DNA of 64,000 nt, taken from the NCBI RefSeq assembly GCF_000429925.1, contig NZ_AUCU01000008.1, positions 124,001 to 188,000 on the forward strand, given 5' to 3'. The notes under the pieces were generated by a model. That model saw only the letters and a list, made by a program, of their open reading frames with translations, did no database searches and was not told the DNA's origin. The position numbers were made by a program, and so were the translations under genes. The DNA comes from Desulfatirhabdium butyrativorans DSM 18734 (GTDB taxonomy: Bacteria; Desulfobacterota; Desulfobacteria; Desulfobacterales; Desulfatirhabdiaceae). This document shows positions 1,704-63,818 of this stretch, one piece after another (the first letter of the stretch is position 1; each line of letters begins with the position of its first letter).

Positions 1704-2091
1704 AATGGTGGGTGAACCGAACCTCTGGTCTTGTGCTGGACTGGCGAGCGCGCAAGGGCGCAAATATCCCGCTGTTTCGCAAGATTTTCCGTCTGCAGGC
1801 GAGGCGTTGCCTTGAAAGTGGATTTCCGTTCACGCAGGGCGGAGGTGTCGAAAAAGCGCGAAACGGTTTTTGTGATGAACCAATTGAAAAAGTCCTTTTC
1901 CGTCCTTCCGGAATAAGTCGGAATCCAACCTTTTCGCCACATTCTGGAACCCGGCTTTCACCGGCGTGATGAAGCAGGCTGTCCTTGCAATTGGCTCTGA
2001 TCAATTGACAATTCATATCAACTGGTTATCTTGATACCCAAAATGGATATGCTGTCAATTGAATCGACTCATCGATACAGGAGAAATCACA
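1704..2091. other. Intergenic region upstream of clpB
   Basis: This 388-nt stretch holds no convincing gene. Short pieces resemble the dispersed repeats of the window, such as GGATTTCCGTTCACGC near 1820. The last 90 nt contain the candidate clpB promoter and the ribosome binding site GGAG at 2080. Confidence 0.5.
2005..2032 (+). promoter_or_regulatory. Candidate sigma70-type promoter for clpB
   Basis: TTGACA at 2005-2010 is followed after 16 nt by TATCTT at 2027-2032, about 60 nt before the clpB start. No convincing heat-shock sigma32 pair or CIRCE inverted repeat was seen. Support is motif only. Confidence 0.4.
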
Positions 2092-10093: not shown

Positions 10094-10493
10094 TCCGCAA
10101 CTTTCCTATCCATTCGGTTTTTTTCCGGATTAGCGCTTGAATTCGGCATCGATTTGCAGTAAGAGAAACCTCTTGATCCAAAGCGGGCATTCGGCAGTGG
10201 GCAGCCTGTAGGGGCGACCGGCCTCGCCCCTACGAGGTTCAGCGTAGGCCAACATTCTGGATTCCTCCCGCCACTGGCGGGATTTCGCCGGAATGACGAC
10301 CCGAGGCCCCCCAACGAAATGACGGTCGTATTTTCATCTCCGTGGGGTGGCAGCGTTTTCACGCTGTATCGCAAAATTGCCTGCCCACAGGCGGCGCGCT
10401 GCTCCAAAAAGGGGTTTTTCGTTCAGGCACTATAATGAGGGTTTCTTCAACGGGGCGTTTTCCCGATAATCCCACAAGGACAGGAGTACACAG
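10094..10493. repeat. Repeat-filled gap: GTAGGGGCGACC palindrome (10208-10233) and right half of the TGCCTGAACG element (10353-10430)
   Basis: The 400-nt gap contains no gene. It holds GGCAGTGGGCAG (10192-10203), a slightly shortened copy of the GTAGGGGCGACC palindrome, a TTCCTCCCGCCACTGGCGGG / TTTCGCCGGAATGACG unit, and a 78-nt right half of the dispersed element ending in GTTTTTCGTTCAGGCAC. TATAAT follows the element directly at 10431, about 60 nt before the usp start, so the repeat edge may contribute a -10 box; no good -35 is present. Confidence 0.75.
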
Positions 10494-16394: not shown

Positions 16395-16555
16395 GCCCTT
16401 GTGGGTGTTATTTCGGACTGGCAATACCGCTATGCTCCATTGCCATGTGGTTATTCGGACCATTGGCAGGTATTCAGGGCACGGATATTTTCCAAGCTTG
16501 ACAACAATACCACCAAGATGTGCAGCAATACTGTACTTCGATTTGGGAGACCATC

Positions 16556-16834
16556 ATGGCAATTCAAACAACATATACCCACGCCCGAGCAAAGCTGGAT
16601 TCTATATTAGACATGGTAACCAAAAATCGGGAAGTGGTCATCATCCAGCGACGCGGGAGTGAGGACGTCGCCTTGATAACCGCCGACGAGTTAGCCGGTA
16701 TAATGGAAACCGCGCATTTGCTTCGATCTCCTAACAATGCAAGGCGGCTTCTTGCCGCACTCGATAGAGCACGAAAAGCATCAGGCGCATCGCAGACGAT
16801 TGATGAGCTTCGTAACGAGGTTGGTTTTGAGTAA
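16556..16834 (+). CDS. yefM: YefM/Phd-family antitoxin
   Basis: A 92-residue antitoxin with an N-terminal DNA-binding Phd/YefM fold (THARAKLDSILDMVTKNREV, then VVIIQRRGSEDVALITADEL) and a C-terminal tail that would wrap the toxin. It neutralises YoeB and normally represses its own operon. The start ATG 16556 lacks a strong Shine-Dalgarno (GGGAG is 9 nt upstream). The toxin begins inside its last codons. Codon choice (more A/T-rich third positions) differs from the neighbouring rnf genes, consistent with horizontal acquisition. Confidence 0.93.
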   Translation: MAIQTTYTHARAKLDSILDMVTKNREVVIIQRRGSEDVALITADELAGIMETAHLLRSPNNARRLLAALDRARKASGASQTIDELRNEVGFE

Positions 16835-17123
16835 GCGGCCTTCAGAGAAATCCGAGACCAAATTGCTGAGAGAGTCTGTATTTCAACCAGAGTTTAGGGA
16901 TGACCTGAAATTCTGGGTAGAAACAGACCGCAAGACAGCCCTTCGCGTTTTTCAATTGATTGAGGCAATCATGCATGATCCCTTTCAAGGTATCGGCAAA
17001 CCTGAGCCTCTAAAATTTCTCGGACCCGGAGTTTGGTCCCGTCGAATTACCCAGGAACATCGGCTGGTTTATGTTGTGGCGAATGAAAAAATTGATTTTC
17101 TTCAAGCGCGCTATCATTATTAA
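16827..17123 (+). CDS. yoeB: YoeB-family mRNA interferase toxin
   Basis: A 98-residue RelE-superfamily ribosome-dependent endoribonuclease. The family C-terminus is intact: DPFQGIGKPEPLKF, WSRRITQEHRLVYVV and the terminal RYHY, with the Arg, His and Tyr residues used for catalysis in YoeB. No ATG gives this N-terminus. A TTG at 16827 with GAGG 6 nt upstream, overlapping the antitoxin stop, is the best start. The pair looks functional. Confidence 0.93.
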   Translation: MSKRPSEKSETKLLRESVFQPEFRDDLKFWVETDRKTALRVFQLIEAIMHDPFQGIGKPEPLKFLGPGVWSRRITQEHRLVYVVANEKIDFLQARYHY

Positions 17124-17653
17124 AAGGGATCATTCACACAGCGTTAACCCATCAGGTTTGATCTGAGCGGGAAATCGAAAATGGACCTGACAATGCCCCT
17201 GTTCCGGTCAGAATCAAACCATTGTTCAAGATGCCTGTGTTTAGAATGATATTCGTGCCTGAACGAAAAAGCCCTATTTGGAGCGGTGCGCCGCCTGCGG
17301 GCAGGCAATTTTGCGATGCAGCGTGAAATCCTGCGGAACACAGGACAGCCGCCCGATCTCATACGGGTCGGGCGGATCCGGATCCATCCAGAAAAGTCGA
17401 ATCCTATGGATTCATGGGGGTTATATCGTGCTTTCTCGTTGAGAACGCCCGACCCATCACGCCGTTGGCGTGACTCCGGCGGCCTCAGACAAGTTCCCGC
17501 TGCATCGCAAAACAGCCCGCCCTCCGGCTCAGTTTGTACCCAAAACGGATTTTTCGTTCAGGCACGAATTATAGACGGTTGATCCCGACAAATGGGTTTA
17601 TTGACACATTCCGAAAGAAATGACACGACACCGCCTGCTGATCGACAGATGAT
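17124..17653. repeat. Gap with full 311-nt palindromic element at 17255-17565
   Basis: The element starts GTGCCTGAACGAAAAAGCCC and ends with the near-complement TTTTTCGTTCAGGCAC. Inside the ends lies a second inverted pair, TTTTGCGATGCAGCGTGAA (17310-17328) against the GCTGCATCGCAAAAC side (17499-17513). Two smaller hairpins occur inside (CCGCCCGA/TCGGGCGG near 17349-17375, and TCACGCC/GGCGTGA near 17457-17473). A second copy of the same length lies at 46771-47081. No ORF or transposase is encoded. The flanks to 17653 show nothing else. Confidence 0.85.
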
Positions 17654-19873: not shown

Positions 19874-20164
19874 CGGGGCTTCCTCGTGTTCGTCCGGAAA
19901 CATCCTCATAGGGGCGGTGCCTGCGGGCGGTCGGCAGTGGGCAGTGGGTAGTTTGGCCCGTCACCCCGGCGAAAGCCGTGGTCCAATACCTGTCGAAGTC
20001 CCGCTCCTGTGGATCTGGATTCCGGCTTTCGCCGGAATGACGTCGGGATATCGATCAACCGGCTGAAGAGCTTAAGGCGTGCCTGAACGGAAACCCGGTT
20101 TTGGTTACAACCTGATCCGGAGGGCAGACTGTTTCACGCTGTATCGCCAAATCGCTCGCCCTCA
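19874..20164. repeat. Composite repeat gap after selD
   Basis: Contains CGGCAGTGGGCAGTGGG (19932-19948), a GTCACCCCGGCGAAAGCC ... GGCTTTCGCCGGAATGACG inverted pair (19959-20042), and a left half of the TGCCTGAACG element beginning at 20079. No gene is seen. Confidence 0.75.
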
Positions 20165-27069: not shown

Positions 27070-27094
27070 CCGATTTGCCCGATACCCGCTCTAT

Positions 27095-27166
27095 AGCGGC
27101 GTGCTGCTTCAAATAGGTGGTTTGCGTTCAGGTACTAAACGAAGCGACCAGCGGGTCGCCCCTACA
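27095..27166. repeat. Degenerate repeat halves before tolC
   Basis: A right half of the TGCCTGAACG element (ends GTTTGCGTTCAGGTAC at 27135) followed by a decayed GTAGGGGCGACC palindrome, AGCGACCAGCGGGTCGCCCC at 27144-27163. Confidence 0.6.
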
Positions 27167-33053: not shown

Positions 33054-33058
33054 GACAG

Positions 33059-33182
33059 CGCCTGAACGGAAAGCCCCTATTCGGAACAGCGCGTCGCCTG
33101 CGGGCAGACAAGTTCCCGCTGCATCGCAAAACAGCCTGCCCTCCGGCTCAGGTTGTACCCAAAACGGGTTTTCCGTTCAGGC
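33059..33182. repeat. Shortened palindromic element, 124 nt
   Basis: Begins GCGCCTGAACGGAAAGCCCC and ends GGGTTTTCCGTTCAGGCG. Compared with the 311-nt copies it lacks the internal block between the two TTTTGCGATGCAGCG arms: CGCCTGCGGGCA joins directly to GACAAGTTCCCGCTGC. It sits 6 nt past the RND stop. Confidence 0.85.
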
Positions 33183-33198
33183 GTCAGGATCGGGGGCA

Positions 33199-34438: not shown

Positions 34439-34563
34439 TGCCTGAACGAAAATCCCCTGTTCGGAGCATCACCCCGCCTGAGGGCAGGCAATGATGCAAC
34501 AAAGCGTAAAACAGCCTGCCCTTCGGCTCAGATCGGGCAAGAGCCGGGCTTCCGTTCGGACGT
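34439..34563. repeat. Shortened palindromic element, 125 nt
   Basis: Begins TGCCTGAACGAAAATCCCC and ends GGCTTCCGTTCGGACG. It touches the end of tetR (the stop of tetR is at 34563), so the element edge lies at the tetR 3' end. Confidence 0.7.
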
Positions 34564-35210
34564 TATGGCAGTTCCGCTCCGTTTTTCTTCACGCCCCGTT
34601 TGAACAGTTCAAAGGCGATATCGAGAGTCGGTTTCAGGTAGTCTTTCTTGTCATCCATGATTTTCTTGCTGGCTTCCCACAGGACGACACCCGAAAAAAG
34701 CGACCAGAAAATGTCCGACAGGGCCACTGGATGCTTGTCGATGAATACCCCTTTCTGAATGCCCTCTTCGAATACCTTCGAAATGGCGCCGATGGATTTC
34801 CGGGAAAGATCCTCGATCTGCGATAATACGCCTTCCGACAGATTCTTCAGGGTTTCGGAAGACTGCAGGTGGAACATGTTGATGATGATCAGCGGATCGA
34901 ACGAATAGACATCGTACATGGCCTCGATCAATTGATCCAGTTTCTGCTCCGGACTGAGACTGGTTTCGTTGTTGACATGTTCCACCCGGATATGCAGAAA
35001 CTGAAGGATGCGAAGCGAAAGCGAAGCATAAAGTTCTTCCTTGTTCTTGAAATACAGGTATAATGTGCCCGGACTGAGCTCAGCCTCGCTGGCGATGTCT
35101 TCCATGGTGGATTTGTTGAAGCCTTTTTCCGAAAAGACGCGTTTGGCAGCCACGATGATCTGCTGCCTGCGTCGCTCTTTCTCTCGTTCCTTGCGTTCCT
35201 GAATGCCCAT
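34563..35210 (-). CDS. TetR/AcrR-family transcriptional regulator
   Basis: A 215-residue repressor. The N-terminal helix-turn-helix is typical (QQIIVAAKRVFSEKGFNKST, then MEDIASEAELSPGTLYLYFK); the C-terminal ligand domain is of the fatty-acid-responsive type. The DNA-binding segment STMEDIASEAELSPGTLYLY is well conserved. It is transcribed away from fhs, with a 635-nt repeat-filled region between. Possible targets are itself, fhs or the RND operon; no operator was identified. Confidence 0.92.
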   Translation of the reverse strand: MGIQERKEREKERRRQQIIVAAKRVFSEKGFNKSTMEDIASEAELSPGTLYLYFKNKEELYASLSLRILQFLHIRVEHVNNETSLSPEQKLDQLIEAMYDVYSFDPLIIINMFHLQSSETLKNLSEGVLSQIEDLSRKSIGAISKVFEEGIQKGVFIDKHPVALSDIFWSLFSGVVLWEASKKIMDDKKDYLKPTLDIAFELFKRGVKKNGAELP

Positions 35211-39379: not shown

Positions 39380-39824
39380 AATTATCGTGACAATACTGCA
39401 GTGGGCAGCATGTAGGGGCGACCGGCGGGTCGCCCCTACGAATCCCTGAGAATGCTTTGGTTTGTATTACCGCATCTGCCGGAATGACGGGTTGGATCTT
39501 CATTCACGGGGGTGGCGTCCCTCGCAATGATCATTATATCGTGCCTGAACGAAAAACCTCTATTTGGAGCAGTGCGCCGCCTGCCCTCCGGCTCAGGTTG
39601 TACCCAAAACGGGTTTTCCGTTCAGGCACTAAGCTAACGATAGCTACTGGTGGTTTCAGTAGAACCCTTCCTCAGTTTTATGGTTCTGCCTGTCAAATGA
39701 GATAATCATTGAAGTAGATCATTTACCTTGAGTAGTCGTCCACCCCAAAATCCTCTTGACTCGGCGGAAGATGACGTGCAAGAGAATATGCGTTTCCCGG
39801 ACAACAGTCCATACGAGGTGAAAC
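39380..39824. repeat. Repeat gap: GTAGGGGCGACC palindrome 39412-39439 and 89-nt palindromic element 39541-39629
   Basis: The first repeat is followed by the tail CCCTGAGAATGCTTTGGTTT also seen near 35489 and 58062. The second is the shortest copy with both ends: GTGCCTGAACGAAAAACC to CCGTTCAGGCAC, with the central arms deleted. From 39630 to 39824 is AT-richer DNA that probably holds the acs promoter, but no clear -35/-10 pair was found. Confidence 0.75.
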
Positions 39825-41639: not shown

Positions 41640-41822
41640 TGCCCCGGTAGGATGCGCATTTCTCGAAGGTTCGTGGAATATACTGCCTGCCCGCAGGCGA
41701 TGAGCTGCACCGAATAGGGCTTTCCGCTCAGACGCAGGATAGCGTCAACGGAGGGACATCGGTTTGCATGAGCTGAGATGGGGATCATCCGGGATACGGA
41801 TGGGTAACAACGGGGGGATACG
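41640..41822. repeat. Half palindromic element between acsA and the ACD-GNAT gene
   Basis: ACTGCCTGCCCGCAGGCGAT through AATAGGGCTTTCCGCTCAGACG (about 41682-41736) is a right half of the dispersed element. The rest is a short leader. Confidence 0.6.
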
Positions 41823-44790: not shown

Positions 44791-45168
44791 GTGACCGCAC
44801 TTTCGGTTTGGGTGTTGCCGGTAGTCCCTTTGGTTTGATAGCTTCCATCCGGGCGCTCAATACGGATGAACTCGCAACAAGTCACAGAATATCCAAGTCC
44901 GTCATTCCGGCGAAATCCCGCCAGTGGCGGGAGGAATCCAGAACGATAGCCCATGCTGGACCTCGTAGGGGCGACCGGCCGGTCGCCCCTACAGGCTGCC
45001 GACTGCCGCATTTTCAGGATAAATCAGATGGTAATGATGGACCCTGGCTTTCGCCGGGATGACCACTTTTTGCAATGGCATCCATACCGCCTGCCCGCAG
45101 GCGGCGAGCCCCTCTGCCCCAAATGTGGGTTTCCGATCAAACATTATATACCGGGAAAGGAGTGAGTC
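44791..45168. repeat. Composite repeat between the acp gene and the acyl-CoA ligase
   Basis: Holds a GTCATTCCGGCGAAATCC/CCAGTGGCGGGAGG unit from 44901, a perfect-type GTAGGGGCGACCGG palindrome at 44965-44992, GGCTGCCGACTGCCGC, and a right half of the TGCCTGAACG element to about 45145. The ligase leader with AAAGGAG follows. Confidence 0.75.
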
Positions 45169-46743: not shown

Positions 46744-46770
46744 AAAATCCGGTCGTTCACCGAATAATTT

Positions 46771-47081
46771 GTGCCTGAACGGAAAATCCCTATTCGGAGC
46801 AGCGCGCCGCCTGCGGGCAGGTAATTTTGCGATACAGCGTGAAATCCTGCGGAACACAGGACTGCCGCCCGATATCGTAAGGGCCGGGCGGGTCCGGATC
46901 CGTCCAGAAAAGCCGAATCCAATGAATGAGGGGTTTATATCGAGACTTCTCCTGGAGAACGCCCGGCCCAATCACGCCTTTGGCGTGATCTCCGGCGGCT
47001 TCAGACAAGTTTCCGCTGCATCGCAAAACAGCCCGCCCTCCGGCTCGGGTTGTATCCAAAACGGGTTTTCCGTTCAGGCAC
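46771..47081. repeat. Full 311-nt palindromic element, second copy
   Basis: Begins GTGCCTGAACGGAAAATCCC and ends GGGTTTTCCGTTCAGGCAC. Its length equals that of the copy at 17255-17565. Inner arms TTTTGCGATACAGCGTGAA and GCTGCATCGCAAAAC and the two small hairpins are kept, with scattered substitutions. It contains no ORF with homology. It lies between an acyl-CoA ligase and yihY. Confidence 0.88.
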
Positions 47082-47110
47082 CAGATAGGAAGTGAGTATC
47101 CGATTCTATC

Positions 47111-63610: not shown

Positions 63611-63808
63611 GTGGCTGAACGGAAACCCCGTTTATTACCGACCTGAGCCGGAGGGCAGGCGGATTTTCGATACAGCGGGAAGCTGACAGATTCTGGACCC
63701 CTCCTGCCAGAGGCAGGATTTCGGCCGAGTGACGAACCCCACTGCCAACGGTTTTCACGGTAAATGTTCATGGAGCCCTGCTCCGAATACGTGATTTCCG
63801 TTCAGACA
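63611..63808. repeat. Split palindromic element and GTCATTCCGG-type unit
   Basis: GTGGCTGAACGGAAACCCCG (63610 on) through GATACAGCGGGAAGC is the left half of the TGCCTGAACG element; CCCCTCCTGCCAGAGGCAGG is an inserted inverted repeat, and GATTTCCGTTCAGACATG near 63792 is the right end. The gap of 221 nt to prfB has no gene. Confidence 0.6.
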
Positions 63809-63818
63809 TGAGGCTATG

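Follow-up and report, generated by a model that had tools for sequence, protein, structure and literature searches.

The 64,000-nucleotide stretch of Desulfatirhabdium butyrativorans DSM 18734 analyzed here (contig NZ_AUCU01000008.1, positions 124,001 to 188,000; hereafter the window) carries two full-length copies of a 311-bp palindromic element, which is very probably a MITE moved by the DDE transposase of one clade, clade A, of ISNCY insertion sequences (NF033593), as judged from sequence comparison. The element is short and without a transposase gene, is bounded by terminal inverted repeats, exists in many dispersed copies, and has its ends in common with autonomous insertion sequences (ISs), while target duplications were found at some of the other copies in the genome but not at the two in the window. 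The first-pass annotation described it as a MITE or a structured non-autonomous element, a description now supported by hundreds of copies, by these duplications, and by parental ISs with matching ends. Its palindromic core is also present between a second, different type of end.

Both copies lie where they had been placed (17255-17565 and 46771-47081) and are equal in length, with 88% identity over the full length (DNA search; the second copy is G000:C2:170771-171081). The shared ends reported earlier are present in both copies, although the actual ends include one more base than claimed, namely GTGCCTGAACG/CGTTCAGGCAC. Inner arms and internal hairpins were recovered in the 17255-17565 copy, and no ORF of at least 100 aa is located wholly within either copy, in line with the reported absence of a transposase ORF. 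A YefM/YoeB-type toxin-antitoxin pair is located at 16520-17123, directly upstream of this copy. The features are collected in Table 1.

Table 1. Copies and parts of the element in the window, transposase remnants, and examples of elements with the second type of end
Feature	Location	Strand	Remark
Full-length palindromic MITE, 311 bp	17255-17565	+	no target duplication in flanks
Left terminal inverted repeat GTGCCTGAACGAAAA	17255-17269	+	
Right terminal inverted repeat	17551-17565	-	
Inner arm TTTTGCGATGCAGCG	17309-17323	+	
Inner arm CGCTGCATCGCAAAA	17498-17512	-	complement of 17309-17323
Internal hairpin CCGCCCGA...TCGGGCGG	17349-17375	no strand	
Internal hairpin TCACGCCGTTGGCGTGA	17457-17473	no strand	missing from some other copies; tandemly expanded in L049
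Second full-length copy, 311 bp	46771-47081	+	no target duplication
Internal-deletion form, 127 bp	33058-33184	+	
Internal-deletion form, 89 bp	39541-39629	+	itself amplified in genome
Diverged copy, 199 bp	63611-63809	+	
Half copy, single end	10355-10430	-	
Half copy, single end	20079-20134	+	
Degenerate copy, ~127 bp	34439-34565	+	
Degenerate half copy	1763-1836	-	
Degenerate half copy	27083-27134	-	
Degenerate half copy	41658-41733	-	
Weak degenerate half copy	45086-45143	-	E 8e-5
ISNCY remnant	C20:47126-47527		168.7 bits; matching end within ~300 bp downstream
ISNCY remnant	C3:119985-120104		51.4 bits; matching end within ~300 bp downstream (C3:119703)
Elements with GATGGACTCGCAAAAAGTC ends, own genome	L224:12073-12386, L232, L233, L236, L246, L249		examples

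The element is highly repeated in its own genome. Matches to the 15-base end number 21 in the window when three mismatches are allowed (3.5 expected), and a profile search detected 12 element copies there. In the 4.48-Mb draft genome they number 573 at up to two mismatches, compared with 17 for a reversed control. The absence of further copies, which the first-pass annotation had named as counter-evidence, was therefore not observed. A further 17 copies were found in 300 kb outside the window, which corresponds to about 250 per genome (hand count from 58 overlapping profile hits, window included), in a sample consisting of the window and fifteen 20-kb stretches that were chosen by position, neither by content nor at random. 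Taken roughly, the draft genome contains 250-290 MITE copies. A DNA search of the genome with the 311-bp sequence gave at least 40 copies at 81-100% identity, with 40 of 348 candidates scored.

The family comprises several size classes sharing both ends (311, 284-297, 127, 89, and 82/83 bp), and individual elements in the own genome range from 65 to 381 bp (n = 50). The 284-297-bp forms equal the 311-bp form minus one or both of two hairpins, whereas the L049 copy has one hairpin unit repeated six times. The 127-, 89-, and 82/83-bp forms look like internal deletions, and by eye the deletion in the 89-bp form is located at a short direct repeat, GCCTGC. Deletion derivatives have been amplified in turn, because the 89-bp query matched at least 40 places in the own genome at 84-100% identity (40 of 377 candidates scored).

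According to the first-pass annotation, direct target repeats were unclear at the two copies, and inspection agrees: the 6-bp flanks differ at 17255-17565 (ATATTC at 17249-17254, GAATTA at 17566-17571) and at 46771-47081 (TAATTT at 46765-46770, CAGATA at 47082-47087). The proposed test of flanks gave a different picture for the rest of the family, with exact 6- or 7-bp repeats at 17 of 72 paired own-genome copies (shuffled mean 0.84, maximum 6) and exact 6-bp repeats at 16 of them (shuffled mean 0.87, maximum 4); the other 55 copies, as well as both window copies, carry no exact duplication. Flank-blind sets were available from the own genome and from loci L055-L074 of other genomes. In the latter, 12 of 15 elements have exact repeats (shuffled mean 2.26, maximum 6), while at up to one mismatch the count is still 12 of 15 and falls inside the shuffles (mean 8.95, maximum 12), because nearly all flanks there are TANNTA. 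The four fixed positions of this consensus are kept in 57, 59, 58, and 56 of 59 exact repeats from own and other sets, many of which come from loci selected for TANNTA at one flank. For the same reason, only the second flank counts as evidence at loci fetched from GTDB contigs, where TANNTA was required on one side.

A transposase with matching terminal repeats, which had been suggested as a further check, was found in relatives as an ISNCY IS. In a Chlorobiaceae MAG (L147), two such ends are 1,889 bp apart, flanked by TATGTA on both sides, and enclose an ISNCY transposase split over two ORFs. The NF033593 model gave a match in 190 of 389 genomes of the order, above the cut-off in 40, with the L194 transposase reaching 521.9 bits against a family cut-off of 325. 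Among the 30 best-scoring loci, which were fetched, 13 of the upper 16 (L189-L204) are bounded by GTGCCTGAACG-type ends that agree at 11-15 of 15 bases and lie 1.67-1.91 kb from each other, and five of these 13 have exact 6-bp repeats, including L189, whose repeat is TAGCTT and not TANNTA; no clean pair of ends was found at L192, L193, and L198. The lower 14 (L205-L218) carry GTGTCCATCCA-like ends in 12 cases, about 1.67-1.7 kb apart, with exact TANNTA repeats in eight, L211 and L215 being those without such an end pair.

In a tree of the transposases, clade A (the upper loci, with the own-genome remnant inside) is split from clade B (the lower loci) at 100/100. L189, L195, L213, and L216 were left out of the tree, as their longest ORF was not the transposase. 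The end labels on the tree are to be read with care: GTGCCTGAACG was also given to L192, L193, and L198 despite the lack of a clean end pair, and requires two changes there, since the own remnant lies inside the group under a separate label, while GTGTCCATCC was given only to L205, L208, L214, L217, and L218, with such ends seen on more of the clade. Target choice looks common to both ISNCY clades and end sequence looks clade-specific. We take the clade with these ends to be the ISDol1 group of ISNCY in ISfinder, and the 6-bp repeat to be the one of that group. ISDol1 is named as an ISNCY subfamily in the accessible part of PMC8147514.

The likeness between the ISs and the MITE, as read by eye, is confined to the ends and to the 6-bp, mostly TANNTA duplication, together with the clade-A remnants lying near such ends in the own genome; the MITE differs in having no transposase, and by eye its interior is unlike the IS ends, so that this interior need not derive from the IS. 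A CGAAGATTTTCC-like motif was seen by eye about 60 bp inside one end of the clade-A ISs L190, L194, L196, L197, L201, and L202. Both arms of the MITEs L059, L062, and L098 contain a stretch similar to CGAAGATTTTCC, again by eye, as if these arms were two inverted copies of one IS end. As well, a plasmid search with the C-terminal piece of the L147 transposase gave 127 records, all below 60% identity; among the 20 rows listed, one was close (54.7%, a Methylotuvimicrobium alcaliphilum plasmid) and 19 were rhizobial-type at 26-29%. The Methylotuvimicrobium plasmid has ends of the same type, with one mismatch each, 1,905 bp apart, and its 6-bp flanks differ.

In the own genome, NF033593 gave two matches, both C-terminal (3') fragments and neither above the cut-off of 325 (Table 1). 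The C20 remnant shares 51% identity with the L194 protein and retains SFDKGF and HS-x-VES, stretches that presumably correspond to the second D and the E of the DDE transposase. No intact parental IS was found in the draft, although the assembly, at 97.3% completeness, may have missed one. Given that only 3' fragments of the parental IS were detected, the MITE family is probably immobile now and decaying in this genome. A pair of ends 2.7 kb apart in L045 (C2:449 and 3193) was considered as a parental IS and rejected, as none of its 14 listed ORFs is recognizable by eye as a transposase and one ORF merely starts in the end. A 602-aa ORF at L045:449, amidohydrolase-like by eye, is readable from a GTG within a solo MITE end, and on this example MITE ends may supply start codons.

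The end is widely distributed outside this species. At up to one mismatch, it is far above the control in many of the 389 genomes of the order, with 249 occurrences in G136, 168 in G031, 108 in G044, 105 in G313, and 104 in G190; by hand count, 65 of the 389 genomes, own included, have at least 20 ends, and no control sum exceeds eight. Several end-rich genomes, such as the drafts G044, G313, and G332, have no NF033593 match at all. Among GTDB contigs, TANNTA followed by the end was found in at least 113 stretches, and 57 of the 80 titles among the matches listed belong to Desulfobacterota or Deltaproteobacteria (hand count), the remaining ones including Gammaproteobacteria, Bacteroidia, Calditrichaceae, Victivallaceae, Kiritimatiellota, Cloacimonadota, and Chlorobiaceae. 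Exact duplications are present in Bacteroidia (L087, L123), Calditrichaceae (L089), and an Alteromonadaceae MAG (L098, L105, L142); possibly, some of the MAGs labelled as other phyla contain misbinned contigs. Among viral contigs, the end with the target pattern was found in one only (L075).

The interiors are far less uniform than the ends. Sixty elements of other genomes fell into 19 blastn clusters by interior, and 27 of the 60 interiors fold at z < -3, compared with 4 of 60 flanking controls; the ends are thus near constant and the interiors vary, with a palindromic interior common but not universal. Minimal palindromes of 37-38 bp, consisting almost only of the two ends, were observed in L078, L081, L082, L100, and L111, with exact 6-bp repeats at two of them (L082 and L100), and may represent the smallest transposable form.

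Three other explanations of the repeat were weighed. One is a regulatory or chromosome-organizing repeat, domesticated from a MITE and kept by selection. Both window copies are intergenic, in gaps between co-oriented genes, and the 46771-47081 copy is tightly spaced, with 27 bp to the stop codon upstream and 29 bp to the start codon downstream, as such a role might suggest; however, many of the copies sampled are half or degenerate and compensated changes are limited to few pairs, and we regard this explanation as improbable.

Slightly less probable still is a conserved structured RNA, such as a riboswitch, a small RNA, or an RNA-based element, that happens to be repeated. Folding as RNA, as the first-pass annotation had proposed, showed that the 17255-17565 element is palindromic far above chance, with a very stable fold on both strands (z = -9.18 on the + strand and -11.76 on the - strand; none of 100 dinucleotide shuffles equal). 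Covariation was examined in a 30-row alignment (A2), which consists mostly of the best blastn hits to the window copy, with L027 left out and L233 added, so that its divergence is understated. The alignment contains 19 double-sided pair-change cells versus 7.2 in shuffles (0 of 500 as high), with 97.5% of cells paired versus 96.9%. Double-sided change is nevertheless confined to 6 of 83 pairs of the consensus fold (shuffled mean 2.5), and 12 of the 19 cells come from one pair, columns 116/201, which splits two subfamilies. The excess over shuffles appears small and inflated by related copies, and gives little sign of RNA function. Moreover, no Rfam match reached the gathering score in the 64-kb window, and size classes that lose most of the fold have still spread. 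Conserved synteny in distant relatives, the other observation that had been named as counter-evidence to a mobile element, was not seen either: 56 other genomes of the family and order, with at most 13 candidates scored per genome, gave no full-length match to the 311-bp sequence and a 35-bp hit in one, a result that also speaks against a conserved RNA.

The least credible of the three, a REP/BIME-type palindrome moved by a Y1 (RAYT, IS200/IS605-type) transposase, would fit the high copy number, the palindromic form, and the position of both window copies between genes, but hardly the long-range terminal inverted repeats and 6-bp duplications that match an ISNCY IS. To our knowledge, REP elements make no target duplications.

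For a MITE mobilized by an ISNCY transposase, the following course would be expected. The DDE transposase of one ISNCY clade would recognize the terminal inverted repeat of about 15 bp, GTGCCTGAACGRAAA, and excise or copy anything between two such ends, and insertion at a TANNTA target would generate the 6-bp, sometimes 7-bp, direct repeat. The interior, without a transposase gene and consisting of a long imperfect palindrome of nested hairpins, would presumably be mobilized in trans by the clade-A enzyme. Internal deletions of the palindrome, which we infer to result from replication slippage, would give the 127-, 89-, and 82/83-bp forms, which keep both ends and would spread in turn.

A second type of end was recognized through four profile hits that match the 311-bp model internally and leave out its ends (three about 30-279, one 90-275), as the elements behind them bear other ends, GATGGACTCGCAAAAAGTC. 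These ends occur 147 times in the own genome at up to three mismatches, compared with four for the control, and are found order-wide, for example 315 times in G016 and 222 times in G026, while the sequence of such an element (F2) had no match in the 56 other genomes. Fetched loci contain 27 GATGGACTCGCAAAAAGTC end pairs. Thirteen are 309-329 bp long and all of these match the interior of the MITE with ISNCY-type ends (E 2e-14 to 7e-28), eight of the matches running from model position 30-38 to 268-279; nine shorter pairs (eight of 87-166 bp, one of 257 bp) have no core match, and five longer ones span neighboring elements. Immediately flanking the 19-bp end, seven of the 13 show an exact 6-bp repeat, in all seven cases ANNNTT, and L252 has an exact 7-bp repeat, AACTTAT; of the rest, two deviate by a single base and three show no fit.

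The two end systems thus have a palindromic core of about 250 bp in common, with the swap located some 30 bp inward of either end. Among own elements, 45 of 46 with ISNCY-type ends and 11 of 16 with GATGGACTCGCAAAAAGTC ends have interiors that fall in a single blastn cluster, with stretches of up to 98% identity over 60 bp. A hybrid element, L229:17246-17564, opens with an end of the first type and closes with a GATGGACTCGCAAAAAGTC end; it has no target duplication. One further case was found elsewhere: L057, an element of G269 with the first type of end, and L322, an element of G245 with the second, have interiors that are 77% identical over 146 bp (E 6e-24), and the two genomes have the same genus label, g43. 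An interior palindrome TGTCATTTCGAG...CGAAATGACA was also observed with both end types, in L057, L089, L097, L106, and L322, and in MAGs labelled Calditrichaceae and Deltaproteobacteria.

The parent of the GATGGACTCGCAAAAAGTC-end MITEs may be an IS1182-like IS. G033 contains a 1,877-bp element whose ends differ from GATGGACTCGCAAAAAGTC by one and two mismatches, which links it to the F2 elements and not to the ISNCY-type MITE ends, and which encodes a 575-aa IS1182-like protein with the domains DDE_Tnp_1_6, DDE_Tnp_1, and DUF772. The protein scores 150.5 bits against the NF033551 cut-off of 270, and the flanks of the element, TATTAT/GTATTT, form no target repeat. In the own genome, the IS1182 model gave weak matches, none above the cut-off.

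It is possible, albeit on balance doubtful, that palindromic cores change ends between the two transposition systems. Recombination would change one end, the palindrome would fold back during replication, and the change would be copied to the other arm, which would explain both the symmetric swap and the hybrid L229. The shared core might also come from simple recombination between two neighboring elements, or both systems might have captured a free palindrome that predates them; a full-length core without either end type was not found in the 364-kb sample, which is weak evidence against the latter.

MITEs as such are already known, and the new part is the assignment of a parent and the core common to two systems. 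By description, the Chunjie MITE of Geobacter uraniireducens is likewise short, with inverted and direct repeats and size variants (review PMC10969869, accessible part). Similarly, the accessible part of PMC11448079 describes a 187-nt ISL3-type MITE of Microcystis as short, with terminal inverted and direct repeats and a stem-loop, but its ends are of the GGCTCTTCG type, its repeats are 8 nt long, and its parent is an ISL3 element. The MITEs of Candidatus Thiomargarita nelsonii also have many copies and hairpins, and their parent IS was not found in ISfinder, whereas the MITE in hupL differs, again by description, in its 10-bp direct repeat and 19-bp inverted repeat (PMC4853749, accessible part). 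No link between ISNCY and MITEs was found in the literature searched, which leaves subscription journals mostly uncovered, including the accessible parts of PMC8147514, PMC11448079, PMC4853749, PMC10969869, and PMC5109826, and the 11-base end string matched only in papers on Trichomonas and polyomavirus.

With this assignment, a class of repeats abundant in sulfate reducers and their neighbors gains a parent, one ISNCY clade with a nearly constant 15-bp end, and TANNTA followed by GTGCCTGAACGRAAA becomes a marker for annotating such repeats in MAGs. If end switching is true, it would account for the survival of MITEs beyond the loss of their transposases and for the fact that some bacterial MITEs are long palindromes: palindromy would be what allows an element without genes to turn to a second transposase once its first has died out.
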